Shown here: piece after piece, positions 37,798-51,778 of the stretch
Numbering within the stretch: position 1 is the stretch's first letter
How the letters are laid out: every line of letters starts with the position of its first letter
Source of the DNA: Verrucomicrobiota bacterium
GTDB taxonomy: Bacteria; Verrucomicrobiota; Verrucomicrobiia; Palsa-1439
DNA: 64,000 nt
Reading direction: 5' to 3'
Assembly (NCBI GenBank): GCA_016871575.1
Contig: VHCW01000014.1
Coordinates: 1-64,000 of the forward strand
Notes under the pieces: model-generated
What the model was told of the DNA's origin: nothing
What the model saw: only the letters and a program-made list of their open reading frames with translations
The model's database searches: none
Made by a program: the position numbers and the translations under genes

Positions 37798-38148
37798 ATG
37801 AAACATCTCGTATTCTCTCTCGCGGTAGTCATGGCGGCCAGCCTCGCGGCGCGCGCCGACCTGACACCGGAACAGATCAAGAAGGGCCAAGAACTGTACA
37901 CCAATGGTTGCCTGAGTTGTCACCCCAAGAAGGGCGGCATGATCAATCCGAAGACGTACACGGATGCCCAATGGGGCAAATGCATGAATCGGATGATGCC
38001 ACTTTCCAAGCTTTCGGGCGATGACAAGAAACTGTTGGGCGAGTACCTCGCCGCCGCCCGCCTCGGCAAGGTGGAGTTGCCAAAGACCGGTCCGGCCGCC
38101 AAGGATGAACAGCCGGCAAAAAGCGGCCGCAAAGCAAAGAAAAAATAA
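37798..38148 (+). CDS. Small secreted c-type cytochrome-like protein
   Basis: Signal peptide; GQELYTNGCLSCHPKKGG (CxxCH). Confidence 0.75.
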   Translation: MKHLVFSLAVVMAASLAARADLTPEQIKKGQELYTNGCLSCHPKKGGMINPKTYTDAQWGKCMNRMMPLSKLSGDDKKLLGEYLAAARLGKVELPKTGPAAKDEQPAKSGRKAKKK

Positions 38149-38256
38149 CGGACTGCTGTCCGTTGCCGGAAAGAATCGAGTGCCAGCGGTGACAATCCGA
38201 TGGTGCGCCGGTTTTTCCTGGCATATGGTGACAACCAGAACCGAAAGGAGACCCTC

Positions 38257-38757
38257 ATGGGCACCAAAGGCAGACAGATCGTGGATATGGACGTGGACAA
38301 GCTCGTCCAGTTGCTGAACAAGGCGTTTGCGGACGAATGGCTTGCGTACTACCAATACTGGATCGGCGCAAAAGTCGTCAAAGGGCCGATGAAGGAAGCC
38401 GTCATCGCCGAACTGACCCAGCACGCCGCGGATGAATTGCGTCACGCCGACATGCTGGCGCTGCGCATCATCCAGCTCGGCGGCACGCCGGTGACTGAGC
38501 CGAAAGAATGGTACAACCTCACCAATTGCGGCTACGAAGCGCCGGACAACCCGTTCGTCAAGAACGTGCTGGAACAGAACATCAAGGGCGAACAGTGCGC
38601 GATCATGACCTACAAGAAATTGCTCAACATCACGATGAGCAAGGACCCGGTCACCTACAACATCGTGCTGCAAATCCTGCAGGATGAAGTCGAGCACGAG
38701 GAAGACCTCCAAGCCGAGATGGAGGATCTCCAGACGTTGTTGAAGCAGGCCAAGTAA
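38257..38757 (+). CDS. Ferritin-like/Dps-like protein
   Basis: MGTKGRQIVDMDVDKLVQLLNKAFADEWLAYYQYW; ELRHADMLA; ILQDEVEHEEDLQ metal ligands. Confidence 0.85.
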   Translation: MGTKGRQIVDMDVDKLVQLLNKAFADEWLAYYQYWIGAKVVKGPMKEAVIAELTQHAADELRHADMLALRIIQLGGTPVTEPKEWYNLTNCGYEAPDNPFVKNVLEQNIKGEQCAIMTYKKLLNITMSKDPVTYNIVLQILQDEVEHEEDLQAEMEDLQTLLKQAK

Positions 38758-38759
38758 TC

Positions 38760-39395
38760 GTGAACCCCGTCGGCAGACCGCGCTTTTCGTGGCGCGCGTT
38801 GACTTCGCTGAGCACGGCCATTTCATTTGTCGTGATGACCGTCAGCGGTGTCTTCTTGTTTCTCGCGCCATCCACGAGAATCGCGCGCGAAACCAACTGG
38901 CAGATGTGGGGATTGGACAAATCCGAGTGGCAGGACCTTCACTTGTTATTCTGCGCGCTGTTCGTCATCGTGGCGGTGGTTCATACCGTCTTGAATTGGC
39001 GGCCATTGCTCGGCTACCTGAAAAAGACAACGGGAGAACGGCCCGCCTTGCGCTGGGAATGGCTGGTGGCGCTGTTGCTGGCCGCGCTGTTTTTCGCAGG
39101 GGCGCGAGTGAAGATGCAGCCGTTTTCTATCATGCTGGACTGGCGGGAGAGATTTCACGGCGGATTCTGTGAAACAACCGGCTCGGATCAATCCGGTGAG
39201 AAAGAAAAAGGCGGTTTCGGCCAGAAGACACTCGCCCAGTATTGCACCGAGCAGGGCTTGCCCCTCGACGCTGCCATCGCCCGCCTGCAAGCCACCGGGA
39301 TCAAAGCTGACGGCAAGGACACGTTGCGACAGCTTGCGGACAAGAGCGGCCGCGAACGCCCCGGCGAAATCACCCGACTGCTCGCAAACCCGTGA
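38760..39395 (+). CDS. DUF4405-like membrane protein (paralogue of 45474-46139)
   Basis: SGVFLFLAPSTRIARETNWQMWGLDKSEWQDLHLLFCALFVIVAVVHTVLNWRPL. Confidence 0.8.
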   Translation: MNPVGRPRFSWRALTSLSTAISFVVMTVSGVFLFLAPSTRIARETNWQMWGLDKSEWQDLHLLFCALFVIVAVVHTVLNWRPLLGYLKKTTGERPALRWEWLVALLLAALFFAGARVKMQPFSIMLDWRERFHGGFCETTGSDQSGEKEKGGFGQKTLAQYCTEQGLPLDAAIARLQATGIKADGKDTLRQLADKSGRERPGEITRLLANP

Positions 39396-39510: not shown

Positions 39511-42176
<2,666 letters not shown>

Positions 42177-43856: not shown

Positions 43857-45041
43857 ATGGTTTCCATGTTTCGCACCCAGAATCTACATGTCCGGAAAAT
43901 TGTCCGCTTGGCGTCGCCGCGCGAAATCAAAGCGGCGTTGCCTTCGACCGCGGCCTCCAGTGTGACCGTGACCCGGAGCCGGAAAGCGCTCAGCCGCATC
44001 CTGGCGCGGGAAGACCCTCGTTTGCTGGTGGTGGTGGGGCCGTGTTCGATTCACGACATTCGGGGCGCGCTGGATTATGCCGGACGACTGAATGCGTTGC
44101 GGAAGGAATGCGCGGAACGGATGGAGATTGTGATGCGGGTGTATTTTGAAAAACCGCGCACGACCATCGGCTGGAAGGGTTTGATCAACGATCCGCATCT
44201 GGACGGAACGCAGGATATTGCGGCGGGATTGAAAATGGCGCGCCGCTTGTTACTGGACATCAACGCCATGGGGCTGCCGGCGGCCACCGAATTCCTGGAC
44301 CCGATTGTGCCGCAATACATTGACGATTTGATCACGTGGGCGGCCATCGGCGCGCGGACCACCGAATCGCAAACCCACCGGGAACTGGCCAGCGGGTTGT
44401 CGATGCCGGTGGGATTCAAGAACGGAACCGACGGGAGCGTACAGATGGCGATTGACGCGATGTTTTCGGCGCGGACGCCGCACTGTTTCCTCGGCATTGA
44501 CCAAGATGGGGCCACCGCCATCGTGCGCACGACGGGCAACCCGGAGGGGCACTTGGTATTGCGCGGGGGCCGGACGCGGACCAATTATGACGCCGCGAGC
44601 ATTCGCGAGGCCGAAAACCGGTTGGAAGAGGCCGGGTTGCCGCCGGTCCTGATGGTGGATTGCAGCCACGCCAATTCCGGCAAGAAACCGGCCCGCCAGG
44701 AGGATGTGTGGCGCAGCGTGATCGAACAACGCCTCGGCCGCACGCGTTCCCTCATCGGCGCAATGATCGAAAGCTTTTTGCACGAAGGCAACCAGCCAAT
44801 CACACCGGATCCCGCCCAATTGCGGTACGGACTCTCGATCACCGACCCGTGCATTTCCTGGGAAACGACCGAGCGGCTGTTGCGCTGGGGCTGCCAGACG
44901 CTCGCCACAACTCCAACGCAAAAGCCCGGTCCCGTGTCGCCACCTCCTCTTATTAACCCTCTTGCTCGCCACGCAACAATGCAGGGAGCAGACAGTGAAC
45001 GACGAATCAGCAAAGACGGCTGGCTTAACCGGCCAGCGTGA
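43857..45041 (+). CDS. 3-deoxy-7-phosphoheptulonate synthase (class I)
   Basis: [88 protein letters not shown]. Confidence 0.96.
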
Positions 45042-45462
45042 CGCTGACCGGTGTGGCGTGCTGCAAGTTGTCGGAGATCGGGCAACGCTCGTCAATCTCG
45101 TGCAGGAGCTTTTCCTTTTCTGCGGGCGTCATGTCGGCGTCAATGCTGACATTCGCCTGAATCGCGGAGAACCCGACAGGCGCCGTCGCGGCTTTACCAA
45201 GAAGACGGTCGGTGTTCAGTTCGCCGGTCACGCCCACGCGAAAACCGCGCACGGGCAGCTTGCGCTGGTTGACGATGATCCGTCCGATGGCGGCAATGCA
45301 GCCGCCGAGCGCAATCAACTGGTAATCGAGCGGCGTCGGCCCCGCATCGGTGCCACCGGCGACGGCAGGCTGGTCAATGATGACCGTGTGTTGGCCGGCG
45401 CGACATTCGGTGCGGAAGGAGTTGGCTTGTACGATTTCGACTTGGATGGTTTTAGCTGGCAT
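45025..45462 (-). CDS. OsmC-family protein
   Basis: [54 protein letters not shown]. Confidence 0.88.
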
Positions 45463-45473
45463 GAGCGTTTCCT

Positions 45474-46139
45474 TTATGGTTGGAGCAAGCGGATGATTTC
45501 GCTGGGGCGTTCGTAGCCGTTGTTGTCGGCGAGTTGTCGCAAGGTGTCCGATTTACTGGCTTTGATCCCTTTGGCTAGCAGGCGGGCGAGAGCAGTGTCG
45601 AGATTTAATCCCTGCTCGCTGCAATACTGGGCAAGCGTCTTCTGGCCAAAACCGCCCTTGCCTTGCGCGGCGGCATGATCCGGGGATGCGTCCGTTCCAC
45701 ACTGTCCGCCGTGAAATCTTTCCCGCCAATCCAACAGCCACGAGAACGGCAGCGTCTCACGGCGCGTGCCCACCCAGATCAGAGCGCCCAGCAACAGCGC
45801 AGCCGGCCACTCCCAACGGATGCCGCGATGTTCCGCGGCGCGGGCTTTCAAGTAGTTCACCATCGGGCGCCAGTTGAACACGGTGTGAATCACGGCAACG
45901 ATGAGAAACAGCGCGCTGAACACCAAGTGAAGATCCTGCCAGGCCGCCTTGCTCAGTCCCCACATCTGCCAGTTGATTTCGCGCGCGATTCGCGTGGACG
46001 GCGCGAGAAACATCGCCACGCCGCTGATTACCATCGCCAGAAACGACACCGCCGCGCACGTCGAGGTCAACGCGCGCCCTGAAAACTGAGGTTTGGTTTG
46101 CGAGTTAATGTGAGTCCGCCTTTCGCGATTGCTTTGCAT
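45474..46139 (-). CDS. DUF4405-like membrane protein (paralogue of 38760-39395)
   Basis: SGVAMFLAPSTRIAREINWQMWGLSKAAWQDLHLVFSALFLIVAVIHTVFNWRPM. Confidence 0.8.
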   Translation of the reverse strand: MQSNRERRTHINSQTKPQFSGRALTSTCAAVSFLAMVISGVAMFLAPSTRIAREINWQMWGLSKAAWQDLHLVFSALFLIVAVIHTVFNWRPMVNYLKARAAEHRGIRWEWPAALLLGALIWVGTRRETLPFSWLLDWRERFHGGQCGTDASPDHAAAQGKGGFGQKTLAQYCSEQGLNLDTALARLLAKGIKASKSDTLRQLADNNGYERPSEIIRLLQP

Positions 46140-46167: not shown

Positions 46168-46359
46168 TTACAGCTTCAATGGCTCGTGCGATTTGCGGCC
46201 ATGCACGCGCTCGTAGGCCATGCAGAACGGGCAGACGTGAGTTTCAACGGTCTTGACCAGTTGAAAGGCGGCGCCCGCCTGATGTTTGCGCGCCGTCCGG
46301 CAGACCGGGCAATTCTCGCAAACCTTGGCGAGCGTGAGATCGAGTTTGGTTGGCTTCAT
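46168..46359 (-). CDS. Small two-CxxC (zinc-ribbon-like) protein
   Basis: MKPTKLDLTLAKVCENCPVCRTARKHQ...THVCPFCMAYERVHGRK. Confidence 0.6.
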   Translation of the reverse strand: MKPTKLDLTLAKVCENCPVCRTARKHQAGAAFQLVKTVETHVCPFCMAYERVHGRKSHEPLKL

Positions 46360-46364
46360 GATGT

Positions 46365-46703
46365 TTAATGGTCGCACAGGTTTGCGCCGCTGACCAGCGT
46401 GCCGTTCAGGTGAGCAGCCACGAGATTTTCCGGCGTGTCCACCGGCGCGCCAACAACAACTTGCACGCCGTTCTGCGCAAACAATTGCTGGGCGCGCTGG
46501 CCCATGCCGCCGGCGAGGATGACGTTGGCGCCTTGCTCGTGCAACCAGCGGGGCAACACGCCCGGCTCATGCGGCGGCGGTGTGAGGTATTTTGTGGACT
46601 TGATTTGCTTCGTGGCCGGGTCGGCCTCGACAAGCGCGAATTGTTCGCAGTGCCCGAAATGGGCGCAGAGTTTGCCGTTGGCAACAGGGATGGCGATCAA
46701 CAT
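46365..46703 (-). CDS. NifX/NifB-like Mo-Fe cofactor domain protein
   Basis: MLIAIPVANGKLCAHFGHCEQFALVEAD; NVILAGGMGQRAQQLFAQNGVQVVVGA. Confidence 0.9.
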   Translation of the reverse strand: MLIAIPVANGKLCAHFGHCEQFALVEADPATKQIKSTKYLTPPPHEPGVLPRWLHEQGANVILAGGMGQRAQQLFAQNGVQVVVGAPVDTPENLVAAHLNGTLVSGANLCDH

Positions 46704-46706
46704 GGG

Positions 46707-47564
46707 TTATTTCTCCTTTTGGTTTTGGTTTTCATCTGCAAATTCAAAAACAACACCCGCACCGGTGGAACGGTAGCGGTTGCCGAATGCGGCGGCCAAT
46801 GCGTCCATCGCGGGTTGGCCGGTGCAATGCCCGGCGGCCACCAAAGCCGGCTTGCGTTCCTGCAAGCGCGCCACCGTCCACGCCAGTTTTGCTGGGCTGG
46901 CGGCGTGCAGGTGCATCCCGCCGATGACCGCCCGCAACGGCGCATTGCCAGTCAGTGTGCCGATATAGTCGAGCGTATTGATGACGCCGGCATGGGCGCA
47001 GCCGAGCAAGACGATGACCCCATTGTCAGTCACCAGATACGACGCCTGGTCGTCCACGAGGTGATCGGGTTGCTGGCCGCTGGGATCGAGAAAGAATGGT
47101 TCCGACTCGGCGACTTCCTCGTGATGATGGCGCGGCACGAAGCCGGTCAGCCACACGCCCGGCGCGATTTCCGTCGGCTGGTTGGTGAAGCGCACACCGC
47201 CCATGTGTTGCGCCACCAACTCGCGCACGGGGCGGGGCATGCTGATTTCTTTGACCGTCCCGCCACTCACGCGATACCGGGCCGCCAACGCCCCGGCGTG
47301 CAAATAGAGCGGAGTCTTGTCAGGTGTCGTCCACGCCTCGGCCAGTCCGCCCGTGTGGTCGTAGTGACCGTGACTCAACATAATCACTTCCGCTTCTTCC
47401 AACCGCACGCCGAGCGCCGTCGCATTGGCGCGTAGCGCCTGTCCCGCGCCGGTGTCGAAAAGCACTTTGTGCCCGCCCGCTTCAATCCAGCAGGCAAACC
47501 CGTGCTCCGTCCGCAGACTCGGACGGCGCGACGTATTGTCCGCGATGATGGTGAGGCGGATCAT
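46707..47564 (-). CDS. MBL-fold metallohydrolase
   Basis: VLFDTGAGQALRANA; IMLSHGHYDHTGGLAEAW; VLLGCAHAGVINTLDYI; VIGGMHLH; AAGHCTGQPAM. Confidence 0.9.
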   Translation of the reverse strand: MIRLTIIADNTSRRPSLRTEHGFACWIEAGGHKVLFDTGAGQALRANATALGVRLEEAEVIMLSHGHYDHTGGLAEAWTTPDKTPLYLHAGALAARYRVSGGTVKEISMPRPVRELVAQHMGGVRFTNQPTEIAPGVWLTGFVPRHHHEEVAESEPFFLDPSGQQPDHLVDDQASYLVTDNGVIVLLGCAHAGVINTLDYIGTLTGNAPLRAVIGGMHLHAASPAKLAWTVARLQERKPALVAAGHCTGQPAMDALAAAFGNRYRSTGAGVVFEFADENQNQKEK

Positions 47565-47935
47565 GACGGGATTAACGAGGTGGCGAGCGCGGCTTTCAAC
47601 GTGTTGGCGGCAAGCAACCCGCAATGCCGCGACTGTTCCGGGACATCGCCGGCGGCGGCAAGCACGGCGGCCTGCGAAATCGCGCGCGCAGCATCCAGCG
47701 TTTTCCCCTCGGCCAACGTCGCCGCGGCGCTGCCGCAACGCATCGAGTTGTCACAGCCGTCCGTGGTGAATGTCGCCCGTTTGACGCGACCTTCTTCGAC
47801 CAACACCCAGAATTCCATTGTGTCGCCGCAGGGGCCGGTGATGCGCGCATCGCCATTGGCGCCGCGCAACGGCCCGAAGTTGGCCGGCACGATCCGTACT
47901 GGTTTCAGACTAGTGATTTCCATAGGTGTTCCCAT
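47561..47935 (-). CDS. NifU/IscU-like iron-sulfur scaffold domain protein
   Basis: NGDARITGPCGDTMEFWVLVEEGRVKRATFTTDGCDNSMRCGSAAATLAEGKTL; SRHCGLLAANTL. Confidence 0.88.
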   Translation of the reverse strand: MGTPMEITSLKPVRIVPANFGPLRGANGDARITGPCGDTMEFWVLVEEGRVKRATFTTDGCDNSMRCGSAAATLAEGKTLDAARAISQAAVLAAAGDVPEQSRHCGLLAANTLKAALATSLIPS

Positions 47936-48789
47936 AGTTGTTGAATGTGTTGCGCCGCCGGGCCCTTGCTGAACTCGACCACTGGCTGACCGTTGACCTG
48001 CGCGTCAGTGACCGCCCGGTCATAGGGAATCCGGCCCACGACGGTCGCGCCGGCCGCGGCGGCTTGTTGTTCGATCCGCTCGGTCATCGCCGGGTTGATA
48101 TCCCATTTGTTCACGCACACAAACGCCGGCACGCCAAAACGCCGGGCCAGTTTGAACACGCGCGCCAAATCATGTTCGCCTGACACGGTCGGTTCGGTCA
48201 CGGCCAACACCGCACTGGCACCAGTCACGGAGGCGATCACAGGACAACCAATCCCCGGCGGACCGTCCACGACGATCAAGTTTCGCGCCTTTCGTTCCGC
48301 GATCCGGCGGGCTTCCGTGCGGACTTGCGTGACGAGTTTGCCGGAGTTTTCTCCGGCGGGCCGCAACCGGGCATGCACCAGCGGCCCAAACCGGGTCTGT
48401 GACACAAACCATTCGCCGCACATGCGCTCCGGGAAATCTATCGCCTCGGCCGGACACAACTCGACACACACGCCACAACCTTCGCAAGCCGACGGGTCAA
48501 TCGTGAATGTCGCCTCACCGTCTTCCTTGCCGTCCATCCGGACCGCATCGAACCGGCAATGCGCCAGACACGCGCCGCACCGGAGGCAATCGGCCTGACG
48601 AATGACCGCCTCGTGGCCGCTGCGAAACTTGTGTCGGACCTGGATTTCAGGATGCAACACCAGATGCAAATCGGCGGCATCCACGTCCGCGTCGGCAAAC
48701 ACGGCGTTCCGCGCCAACGCGGCGAAGGAAGCCGCCACGCTGGTCTTGCCCGTGCCACCCTTGCCGCTGAGGATGACAAGTTCTTTCAC
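47905..48789 (-). CDS. MinD-superfamily P-loop ATPase with inserted ferredoxin domain
   Basis: GTG start; KELVILSGKGGTGKTSVAASF; CLRCGACLAHCRFDAV and CEGCGVCVELCPAEAI. Confidence 0.93.
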   Translation of the reverse strand: MKELVILSGKGGTGKTSVAASFAALARNAVFADADVDAADLHLVLHPEIQVRHKFRSGHEAVIRQADCLRCGACLAHCRFDAVRMDGKEDGEATFTIDPSACEGCGVCVELCPAEAIDFPERMCGEWFVSQTRFGPLVHARLRPAGENSGKLVTQVRTEARRIAERKARNLIVVDGPPGIGCPVIASVTGASAVLAVTEPTVSGEHDLARVFKLARRFGVPAFVCVNKWDINPAMTERIEQQAAAAGATVVGRIPYDRAVTDAQVNGQPVVEFSKGPAAQHIQQLWEHLWKSLV

Positions 48790-49613
48790 CCCGTCACCTC
48801 GGCCAACAACTGCCGGAATTTCTCCTGCAATTCCGGTGCTGCTGCCAACACTGGTTCGCCCCGCGAATACGCCTCGGCGATTCGCCGGCCTTCCGGAATT
48901 TGGAGGCGCACGGGAATGTTTTCGGCGCGGCAATAATCCAGCACACGGTTGTCGCCGATGTCGGCGCGGTTGATGACGACACTGAACGACCGTTTCAACT
49001 CGCGCACGGTGTCCACTGCCAGCTTCAAGTCGTGCAAGCCGAACGGCGTCGGCTCGGTCACCAGCAACACGTGGTCGGCATCCCGCACGGAGGCAACCAT
49101 CGCACAGGCGGTGCCGGGCGGGCAATCGAGAATGGTCAGGCCGTCACCGTTAGCGTGGCGTTTCACGGCGCGAATGATGGCGGGCGCAAGCGGCTGGCCG
49201 ACATTGAGGCTGCCGGTCACGAACTCGACGCCGTTGCTTGTTCCCTGCTCGACAAACCCGATTTCGCATTCGACTTCGCGGATCGCATGGGTTGGACACA
49301 CTTTTACGCAGCCACCGCAACTGTGACAAAGCTCCGGGAACACCACCGCCTTGCCTTTGAGCACCGCGATGGCGTTGAACTGGCAAAGCTGCCGGCATTT
49401 GCCGCAGCCATCGCACTTCGCGGCGTCCACCACCGGCACGGGCAACATCACCGGCTCGCGGTGGCGGATTTCTGGTTTGAGGAACAAATGGCAATTCGGT
49501 TCTTCAACGTCACAATCGAGCAGCCGCACCGGGCCGTCGGCGGATAGCGCGAGACACAATGCGACCGTCGTCTTGCCGGTGCCGCCTTTGCCGCTGGCGA
49601 TGGCGAGTTTCAT
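48786..49613 (-). CDS. MinD-superfamily P-loop ATPase with inserted ferredoxin domain (tandem paralogue)
   Basis: MKLAIASGKGGTGKTTVALCLAL; CDGCGKCRQLCQFNAIAV and CHSCGGCVKVCPTHAI. Confidence 0.93.
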   Translation of the reverse strand: MKLAIASGKGGTGKTTVALCLALSADGPVRLLDCDVEEPNCHLFLKPEIRHREPVMLPVPVVDAAKCDGCGKCRQLCQFNAIAVLKGKAVVFPELCHSCGGCVKVCPTHAIREVECEIGFVEQGTSNGVEFVTGSLNVGQPLAPAIIRAVKRHANGDGLTILDCPPGTACAMVASVRDADHVLLVTEPTPFGLHDLKLAVDTVRELKRSFSVVINRADIGDNRVLDYCRAENIPVRLQIPEGRRIAEAYSRGEPVLAAAPELQEKFRQLLAEVTG

Positions 49614-50096
49614 TTACCCGCGTCGCGCTCCTCGGTGCCGAGCGGTTGTTTCATCCACGTCATCCTGCCAGCCGTTGCGAGTCGGTTGGATGCAGTCAAA
49701 CCGGGCGCAATACGGTTTGATATCGAGCAACGGTGTTCCGTCGAGGATGTCGAGGCCGTCCACATAAAGGACGCTGCCTTCGCGGCGCTCCAGTTTCACG
49801 ATGCTCAAGCCGATCGGATTCGGCCGGGCTGGCGCGCGTGTGGCAAAGACACCGTGTTCTGCGTCCTGCAAATATGGTTTCACTGACAACTTCGCTGCTG
49901 GGGCTTGGTGGAGATGATAAATCAGGTAGATGTGTGAGAACCCCTCCAGATCGCGCAATCCATCGGCGAACTCTGGAAGAATTTCCACACGACCCCGGCA
50001 ACCGGCCGCGTACACAGGCTGAATCGGCGCACTCTCTGACTGAGTGTGCTTGCTCCGAATCACGCCGATGGGCCGGTAGGAAACGTTCACGCCCAA
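49614..50096 (-). CDS. TrmO/YaeB-like tRNA (t6A37) methyltransferase
   Basis: YRPIGVIRSKHT; GLRDLEGFSHIYLIYHLHQ; GVFATRAPARPNPIGLSIVKLERREG; GTPLLDIKPY. Confidence 0.92.
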   Translation of the reverse strand: MGVNVSYRPIGVIRSKHTQSESAPIQPVYAAGCRGRVEILPEFADGLRDLEGFSHIYLIYHLHQAPAAKLSVKPYLQDAEHGVFATRAPARPNPIGLSIVKLERREGSVLYVDGLDILDGTPLLDIKPYCARFDCIQPTRNGWQDDVDETTARHRGARRG

Positions 50097-50449
50097 TGTC
50101 CTTCCACGTCAGCGCTCGTTGACGGCTGAAGTTCGCCTTTTTGGAGGCGTTCAACGGCTTCGTAGACCTTGCCGGTTGCGCCGGTCACGACTTGAATGCC
50201 GGCCGCCTGCAATGCGCGAAACGCCTTCGGACCGCAGTGGCCGGTGATGACCAATTCCGCGCCAAGCTGCGAGACGGTTTCCGCCGCCTGAATACCGGCA
50301 CCCTGCGCGGCATTCAGATTTTGCGTGTTGTCATGGACGGTGAACCCGCCGGTAGCGGTGTCCACAACGATGAATCGGGCCGCGCGCCCGAACCGGGGAT
50401 CCAGCGGTGCGTCCAACGACGCGCCGCTGGCGGTGATGGCGATTTTCAC
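50087..50449 (-). CDS. NifX/NifB-like (ORP-family) Mo-Fe cofactor domain protein
   Basis: MKIAITASGASLDAPLDPRFGRAARFIVVDTATG; ELVITGHCGPKAFRALQAAGIQVVTGATG. Confidence 0.92.
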   Translation of the reverse strand: MKIAITASGASLDAPLDPRFGRAARFIVVDTATGGFTVHDNTQNLNAAQGAGIQAAETVSQLGAELVITGHCGPKAFRALQAAGIQVVTGATGKVYEAVERLQKGELQPSTSADVEGHWA

Positions 50450-50736
50450 TTTTTCTCCAGTTCCAGTTCGCTCAACCGTTGGCGAATTTCATCGAGTTGG
50501 GACTGCAGCACCTCAGCCTGTTTTTCCAGCCATTGCTTCTGCGTAGCTGCCGGTGGGAGTGCGCCCCAACCGCCGCGCATCCAACCGGGCAAGCCGGTGG
50601 CATGATACCGATGCCGCCAGCCGCGACCGCCGCGACCGAAACCGCCGCCCGGTCCACCAAACCCCGCACAGTAACCGCGCGCCCGGCCTGTCATCGGTCC
50701 GGCACCCATTGATCCAGTTCCATCTCCTCTTGGCAT
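50446..50736 (-). CDS. DUF5320 family protein
   Basis: MPRGDGTGSMGAGPMTGRARGYCAGFGGPGGGFGRGG..., C-terminal coiled coil. Confidence 0.88.
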   Translation of the reverse strand: MPRGDGTGSMGAGPMTGRARGYCAGFGGPGGGFGRGGRGWRHRYHATGLPGWMRGGWGALPPAATQKQWLEKQAEVLQSQLDEIRQRLSELELEKK

Positions 50737-50764
50737 GATGTGATTCCTTTCGTTGGTTGATTGT

Positions 50765-51289
50765 TTACGCTCTTATCATCCGCGCCCCGCACTTGGGGCA
50801 AAGCTTCTGGTTGCACGGCTCACCGGGCACGTGGGGAGCGCGTTCACCGCATTGCGGGCACACACACTCCACGGGTGCACCACCGCGCCCGCCCGGTCCG
50901 CCTTGGCCGCGACGTTGACCGCATCCGCACGGGCCACGCCCCATGCCGCGTCCGCCGCCGGTTTGATTTCCTTGTCCTGCTGCCATATTGGATTCTCCTT
51001 TCATGACGACCGGACCACCCTCGATGCGCAGCGCTTTGCCGTGCAGAAGGGCGTCGGCCACTTTTTTGCGAGCGGCCTCAACGATGCGCGCAAATGTCGC
51101 CCGCGAGATTTTCATTTGTTCCGCTGCTTGTTCCTGGTACTGGCCGTTGAAATCGGCGAGCCGCAGAGCCTCAAGTTCGTCGAGCGACAACACGACTTCC
51201 TCCAGCGTGCGCAACGGCACACCGGCTGGCTTGAAATAAGTGACGTCGGGAGCAAACCCGACACGGCGTTGACACCAAGGACGTGGCAT
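50765..51289 (-). CDS. DUF134-family predicted DNA-binding regulator
   Basis: MPRPWCQRRVGFAPDVTYFKPAGVPLRTLEEVVLSLDELEALRLADFNGQYQEQAAEQMKISRATFARIVEAARKKVADAL; the family typically begins MPRP. Confidence 0.93.
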   Translation of the reverse strand: MPRPWCQRRVGFAPDVTYFKPAGVPLRTLEEVVLSLDELEALRLADFNGQYQEQAAEQMKISRATFARIVEAARKKVADALLHGKALRIEGGPVVMKGESNMAAGQGNQTGGGRGMGRGPCGCGQRRGQGGPGGRGGAPVECVCPQCGERAPHVPGEPCNQKLCPKCGARMIRA

Positions 51290-51294
51290 GATGG

Positions 51295-51314
51295 TTGTGA
51301 GCATATGCTCATAA
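51295..51314 (-). promoter_or_regulatory. Candidate DUF134 operator
   Basis: TTGTGAGCATATGCTCATAA with a perfect 14-bp palindrome TGAGCATATGCTCA at 51298-51311, just upstream of the DUF134 start. Confidence 0.65.
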
Positions 51315-51337
51315 CGCTAAAGCGTCAAGGTGTAATT

Positions 51338-51577
51338 TTAGCGGTGCAACTGGGTGAATCGCTCGCGTAATGTGTCGTGTAGTTTCCGCCGGAACTTGAC
51401 CGGCAACGCGCACGGCTGGCCGTCCTTGTAGAGCGTGATGGTCTGGCGGATGTTGTCCACGACCACCTGGCATGGGTTGCAGCCGGCGAGATGTTTCTCA
51501 AACGCCTCGCAGACGCCCGGATCAACCGTGCCGTCCACGTATTCGTTCAACATCTGCAAAAGCTCTTCACACTTCAT
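51338..51577 (-). CDS. Anti-sigma-factor-like zinc-finger (zf-HC2) protein
   Basis: MKCEELLQMLNEYVDGTVDPGVCEAFEKHLAGCNPCQVVVDNIRQTI (HxxxCxxC). Confidence 0.75.
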   Translation of the reverse strand: MKCEELLQMLNEYVDGTVDPGVCEAFEKHLAGCNPCQVVVDNIRQTITLYKDGQPCALPVKFRRKLHDTLRERFTQLHR

Positions 51578-51778
51578 GGCTGTCTGGATTGAGCCGCCAG
51601 GTTCCGAAAGGTTACAACGGATCTGCAATTATTTTCGCTTGCCATGAAGGACATTGCGGCAAGGAAAGGTGTCGAGCGCGGTTTTGCTCAACCTGCCTTG
51701 GCAGGTCAATGCGCCACGCACGCCGGGCGGATGTTTGACAATCGCCGCCAGTCTCGTGGCGCCGCAGCAGAAAACGCC

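Follow-up and report, generated by a model that had tools for sequence, protein, structure and literature searches.

The orange-protein (ORP) cluster of Desulfovibrio vulgaris and D. alaskensis combines a single-domain ORP-like NifX protein, two adjacent MinD-like ATPases (Orp3 and Orp4) and MrpORP, in which an Mrp ATPase domain is joined to a C-terminal Di-Nase domain; a divergent operon layout, a sigma-54 promoter site and a cognate regulator are further traits of this system. Orp3 and Orp4 have two [4Fe-4S] motifs apiece, MrpORP passes Fe-S clusters to them in vitro, and a role in cell division has been proposed for the complex, with MrpORP being polar (PMC6345978). Closely related NifU-Mrp-ORP clusters occur in Smithella, Syntrophaceae, Phycisphaerae, WOR-3 and others (L037, L038, L070, L077, L111). 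Here, we describe a locus of this kind in a Verrucomicrobiota bacterium (assembly GCA_016871575.1), located on a stretch of 64,000 nucleotides of contig VHCW01000014.1, hereafter the window. The locus is, in our judgement very securely, an ORP-type gene cluster and a relative of the Desulfovibrio orange-protein/MrpORP system. We read it, with a probability of about 0.6, as an ORP-type iron-sulfur cluster lacking the Mrp ATPase domain, whose NifU-like scaffold and Di-Nase domain are encoded as separate proteins, a reading that rests on sequence comparison.

The window belongs to a genome of 5.19 Mb that is 95% complete, in which all genome-wide checks were made by family searches. The operon consists of 12 genes on the minus strand, from 51304 to 45025, in the order DUF134, DUF5320, NifX1, TrmO-like, MinD1, MinD2, NifU-like, metallo-β-lactamase (MBL), NifX2, small Cys protein, DUF4405 and OsmC. 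The genes overlap by 4 to 31 bp or are separated by no more than 28 bp, the successive spacings across the first ten being +28, −4, −10, 0, −4, −31, −4, +3 and −13 bp. The initial annotation had placed these ten genes on one strand, nearly all overlapping or abutting, and every one of them is found at its place and strand; the run is longer than the interval then delimited (46168-51289), since DUF4405 follows the small Cys protein at +28 bp and OsmC follows at +11 bp. A zf-HC2 gene (51338-51628) lies only 33 bp upstream and was left out of the operon because it occupies another place, in inverted orientation, in the sister genome. The latter (L033/L200; G197/G409), an uncultured Verrucomicrobia bacterium, is the nearest named relative and the sole other member of the genus that was found, with a MinD1 that is 85% identical.

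The ORP identity of the locus, proposed in the initial annotation, is borne out by three of its components. NifX1 (50087-50449; PF02579, 86 bits) is a single-domain carrier of the orange-protein-like Orp8 type. Its best relative in the PDB is the orange protein 2wfb (E 3e-24), with which it has the DPRFGRA region and the GPKAF..LQAAGI block in common. NifX2 (46365-46703; PF02579, 70 bits) corresponds to a free-standing C-terminal domain of MrpORP, as it matches NF041136 at 140 bits over positions 265-365 of that 365-position model. Its motifs CAHFGHCE, TPPPHEPGVLP and terminal CDH are those of the MrpORP Di-Nase domain (CxHFGHCE, TPPPHxPGxxP and CDH); as isolated, that domain carried a [3Fe-4S] cluster (PMC6345978). 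These are the only two PF02579 proteins of the host genome. Lastly, MinD1 (48786-49613), in which a 2x[4Fe-4S] ferredoxin is inserted, and MinD2 (47905-48789, with a GTG start) each combine a CbiA/ParA domain with two Fer4 motifs in Pfam searches and correspond to Orp3/Orp4. The eight Fer4 cysteines of MinD1 and its C170 (DCPPGTAC) are invariant in 93 homologues, and the eight cysteines of MinD2 together with that of DGPPGIGC are conserved at 0.99 or above in 97 homologues, both alignments containing some near-duplicate rows. Seven Verrucomicrobiota genomes (L024-L030, L193-L199) encode MinD1 and MinD2 as a single fused protein of about 600 residues, in support of a paired mode of action for these ATPases.

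The remaining products, assigned like the others from Pfam and NCBIfam profile searches, include a NifU-N/IscU-like scaffold (47561-47935; PF01592, 65 bits) that retains the full IscU ligand set (C36, D38, C61, H104 and C105), including the three cysteines and the aspartate typical of such scaffolds; all five residues are invariant in 101 homologues. The MBL-fold hydrolase (46707-47564; PF00753, 44 bits) is most closely related in the PDB to 2p4z (E 1e-26) and to Tm1679 (3h3e), and alignment of its homologues shows H65xH67xD69H70 and H191 to be invariant. The first gene (50765-51304; PF02001, 83 bits) encodes a DNA-binding-like DUF134 protein with a Gly-rich C-terminal tail carrying Cys pairs and is likely a regulator; it is followed by a DUF5320 protein (50446-50736; PF17253, 83 bits). 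The small Cys protein (46168-46377; CENCPVC...CPFC) has no Pfam or NCBIfam match, belongs to an orphan family with homologues only in the sister genome and in L035, and is possibly an analogue of Orp5, the small [2Fe-2S] protein of the Desulfovibrio ORP complex. At the end of the run, the DUF4405 membrane protein (45474-46139; PF14358, 62 bits) is retained in the sister operon and the OsmC-like protein (45025-45462; PF02566, 65 bits) is displaced and inverted in that genome. A PADLOC search for defence systems returned one trivial 16-bit match, which was disregarded.

The genome-neighbourhood comparison that the initial annotation had called for reveals conserved synteny in several phyla, Verrucomicrobiota included. 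Three different seeds served as starting points, to guard against bias from any one of them, and DUF134 was counted only at 110 bits or more, as weaker matches of 50-75 bits probably reflect the Cys/Gly-rich tail and not DUF134 itself. Seeding with NifU gives 43 loci that measure 10 kb or more and contain MinD1; MinD2 is present in all 43, NifX2 in 39, NifX1 in 37, Mrp in 34, MBL in 30, DUF5320 in 28, TrmO in 19 and DUF134 in 11. Seeding with MrpORP in the phylum of a Desulfobacterales genome gives 14 loci with MinD1 (MinD2 13, NifX1 13, NifU-like 7, MBL 4, TrmO 0), and seeding with MinD1 gives 24 loci in Verrucomicrobiota (NifX1 22, MinD2 22, NifX2 19, MBL 16, NifU-like 8, TrmO 1). Such conservation makes a chance assembly of this gene set untenable, and the lineages concerned are mostly anaerobic, in agreement with the association with strict anaerobes noted earlier. 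The NifU-like, MBL, DUF5320 and TrmO genes, which had been regarded as extra modules of an uncharacterised system, are found repeatedly in the ORP clusters of many phyla and are thus regular companions. The locus presents the ORP system, which is known but still poorly understood, in a new arrangement. Its occurrence is patchy, nine further genomes from this family having yielded no such cluster. A horizontal origin from a Smithella/Syntrophaceae-like donor is not supported for MinD1, which groups in its tree with Verrucomicrobiota and Lentisphaerota sequences.

What sets this arrangement apart is the missing Mrp ATPase domain, of which only the Di-Nase partner in MrpORP is present. In comparable loci, Mrp typically lies between, or is fused to, the NifU-like scaffold and NifX2, and the three are found in a single open frame in L164, L165 and L169; six relatives score 521-531 bits against the MrpORP model, whose curated cut-off is 450 bits. 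The Smithella-type clusters have the same order, NifX1-TrmO-MinD1-MinD2-NifU-like...NifX2, often with MBL, but keep the Mrp domain, either separate or fused. In the window and in the sister genome, by contrast, no Mrp domain is found between the NifU-like gene and NifX2 or elsewhere in the cluster, and both genomes possess a stand-alone Mrp homologue outside it (contig C45 in the host). Between MinD1 and MinD2, the sister genome further has a gene for biotin synthase (TIGR00433, 372 bits; L033 8159-9136). Absence of Mrp is uncommon among such clusters, not unique: Mrp is nearby in 13 of the 24 Verrucomicrobiota clusters, some of the others being cut by contig ends. Compared with the Desulfovibrio cluster, the locus also differs in bringing NifU-like, MBL, TrmO, DUF134, DUF5320 and DUF4405 genes together in one run.

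Based on these data, we tentatively suggest a mechanism whose components are more firmly established than the mechanism as a whole. The NifU-like scaffold would build [2Fe-2S]/[4Fe-4S] clusters on its three invariant cysteines; the scaffold, or the stand-alone Mrp encoded on contig C45, may then load the ferredoxin domains of the MinD1/MinD2 pair, whose ATP turnover would drive the transfer of clusters, or of electrons and metal sulfide, to NifX1/NifX2. The simplest order would thus be scaffold, (Mrp), MinD pair and NifX, with the Mrp step in this genus either carried out by the stand-alone protein or skipped. DUF134 would regulate the operon, and the single-domain TrmO could be an optional S-adenosylmethionine (AdoMet)-dependent methyltransferase serving the ORP system. 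The NifU-like/Mrp/NifX2 fusions of relatives, in which scaffold, carrier and ORP domain form one chain, place these three in a single pathway. Several observations weigh against this reading. There is no match resembling a −24/−12 sigma-54 site near 51300-51700, and matches in the whole window are at or below chance; nor is there a divergent operon pair, the operon running in a single direction. Both MinD ATPases have an invariant cysteine seven residues after the switch-II aspartate (DCPPGTAC and DGPPGIGC), the same spacing as that of the cluster ligand Cys132 in NifH, but an hhalign comparison with NifH did not confirm the equivalence, and the match is one of motif spacing only. Moreover, no enzyme or process is known, even in Desulfovibrio, as the target of ORP systems. 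Searches for an Mrp domain in the cluster and for a sigma-54 site were negative, for which reason we do not assign the locus to the Desulfovibrio ORP complex as strictly defined.

Metallocluster assembly, as anticipated in the initial annotation, is the best reading of the role that the gene content allows; the nature of the metal and the purpose of the pathway could be viewed differently. NifX1 might carry a Mo-Cu sulfide, as on the Desulfovibrio ORP, with the other genes building or delivering that cluster. The relationship to 2wfb, its closest solved relative, and the two blocks held in common with it favor this view. However, no other gene of the operon is specific for Mo or Cu, NifX2 matches the domain isolated with a [3Fe-4S] cluster (PMC6345978), and the species bound by related NifX folds are purely Fe-S. 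The sequence holds no specific argument for molybdenum, as previously invoked, over iron-sulfur. A Mo/Cu-handling function appears unlikely. A still less probable scenario, prompted by the similarity of the ATPases to MinD (TIGR01969) and by the polar MrpORP and cell-division role proposed for the ORP complex (PMC6345978), is that the paired ATPases act in polar positioning or cell division, with their Fe-S clusters as a redox sensor; the operon encodes no MinE or MinC partner, and the NifU, NifX and MBL proteins indicate cluster chemistry instead.

The PF02579 fold itself gives rise to two further possibilities. The NifX proteins might hold thioferrate, to be mobilised by the ATPases and NifU, in the manner of the storage protein IssA of Pyrococcus furiosus, which has the same IPR003731/PF02579 fold (PMC5524996); a ferritin-like gene in the wider neighbourhood would suit this function. 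Yet the long cationic Gly/aromatic tail of IssA is absent here, NifX1 ending in LQPSTSADVEGHWA and NifX2 in GANLCDH, and we find such storage very improbable. The presence of PF02579 and NifU_N domains is likewise compatible with a module for maturation of the nitrogenase iron-molybdenum cofactor, a proposal to which we attach hardly any weight: both PF02579 proteins of the genome are in the operon, leaving no NifB-NifX fusion or NifX/NafY elsewhere, the NifU-like protein is a short scaffold domain only, and the operon contains no nif genes, no search aimed at nitrogenase genes having been made. An ORP-type iron-sulfur system without the Mrp domain remains our preferred reading.

The TrmO-like protein (49614-50096; TrmO_N, 140 bits; TIGR00104, 139 bits for a cut-off of 93) is a single-domain class VIII AdoMet methyltransferase of the TrmO/YaeB type. 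In 17 other genomes, too, a TrmO gene is the last of the cluster genes ahead of MinD1, mostly directly after the ORP carrier, and these genomes span Verrucomicrobiota, Smithella/Syntrophaceae, other 'Deltaproteobacteria', Hydrogenedentota, Phycisphaerae, Edwardsbacteria and WOR-3. In the TrmO tree, the cluster copies, including that of the window, fall mostly into one subclade, with 4 label changes as opposed to 13 in shuffles. In a TrmO-seeded control on a Desulfobacterota-centred sample, MinD1/MinD2 are within reach in 6 of 60 loci, for which we estimate a chance expectation below one (20 kb in a 3-Mb genome). The link between TrmO and ORP clusters is real but optional; an obligatory role is rejected, given its absence from all 14 MrpORP-seeded clusters and the 12 or more changes that the TrmO label needs on the MinD1 tree. 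No TrmO is found anywhere in the sister genome.

The protein had been called a tRNA t6A methyltransferase, an activity that is unproven for this form. Like the E. coli enzyme, it retains in its TrmO_N domain the Gln, Arg, Asp and Lys that bind AdoMet (Q26, R87, D116 and K127, equivalent to Q22, R82, D111 and K122 of AF0241), but the C-terminal DPRxxY domain is absent from it, as from all 16 cluster TrmOs examined. E. coli TrmO needs this domain to form m6t6A, and the target of the archaeal-type single-domain YaeB is stated as unknown (PMC4132733). Lack of DPRxxY is not specific to ORP clusters, nearly all TrmOs of the TrmO-seeded sample being single-domain, and its absence alone is thus no proof of a different target. 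The only other TrmO_N protein of the host, encoded on contig C17 (L120 5144-5623; 104 bits), has a signal-peptide-like start (MQYLILSMVLFVTSVTAA), which leaves the operon TrmO as the only apparent cytosolic copy and makes an ordinary tRNA role possible. A secreted protein of the TrmO fold is in itself unexpected; this one has NLIA in place of NPIG, and its partner in the tree, on a long branch, is a Pirellulales sequence. Speculatively, and we consider it improbable, the single-domain TrmO might methylate not tRNA but a component of the ORP system, either a protein side chain or a bound cofactor, and MinD1/MinD2 might hold a NifH-like interface site via the DxPPGxxC cysteine. A literature search on DUF134, DUF5320 and TrmO together with NifX gave nothing relevant within the collection searched.

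A block on the plus strand comprises genes for a ferritin-like protein (38200-38757), a DUF4405 protein (38760-39395), a Fur-family regulator (39511-39996) and KatG (about 39927-42176). The KatG/PerR/ferritin block described next to the operon exists, but is not directly adjacent to it: the two are on opposite strands, three unrelated genes (methyltransferase, Rieske and DAHP synthase) lie between them, and no KatG or Fur gene is present in the approximately 25 kb fetched around the sister operon. On these grounds, the block was rejected as a functional partner. It is headed by a gene (37798-38148, plus strand) for a small cytochrome-c-like protein that begins with a signal-like stretch and contains a CxxCH motif, and its DUF4405 protein, beside Fur/KatG, has the same C-terminal extension (GGFGQKTLAQYC...) as that of the operon. 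The host genome contains one cytochrome bd and two PFOR-type genes, and no haem-copper oxidase (COX1) was found in it. This fermentation-type, oxidase-poor genome fits an anaerobe with oxygen defence; the presence of the operon in an aerobe is not supported, and there is no aerobe/anaerobe paradox to explain.

The orange-protein system has a wide distribution among anaerobes, and what it is for is still not known. Our comparison widens its parts list in a testable way: across phyla, the system is accompanied by the NifU-like scaffold and the MBL hydrolase and, in repeated cases, by a methyltransferase. A natural cluster without the Mrp domain offers a test of whether the Mrp carrier is essential. 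The association of TrmO with ORP clusters also hints at what the orphan single-domain TrmO family might act on; if methylation of an ORP component were true, it would provide a function for the archaeal-type YaeB family and make ORP clusters methylation-dependent metallocluster systems.

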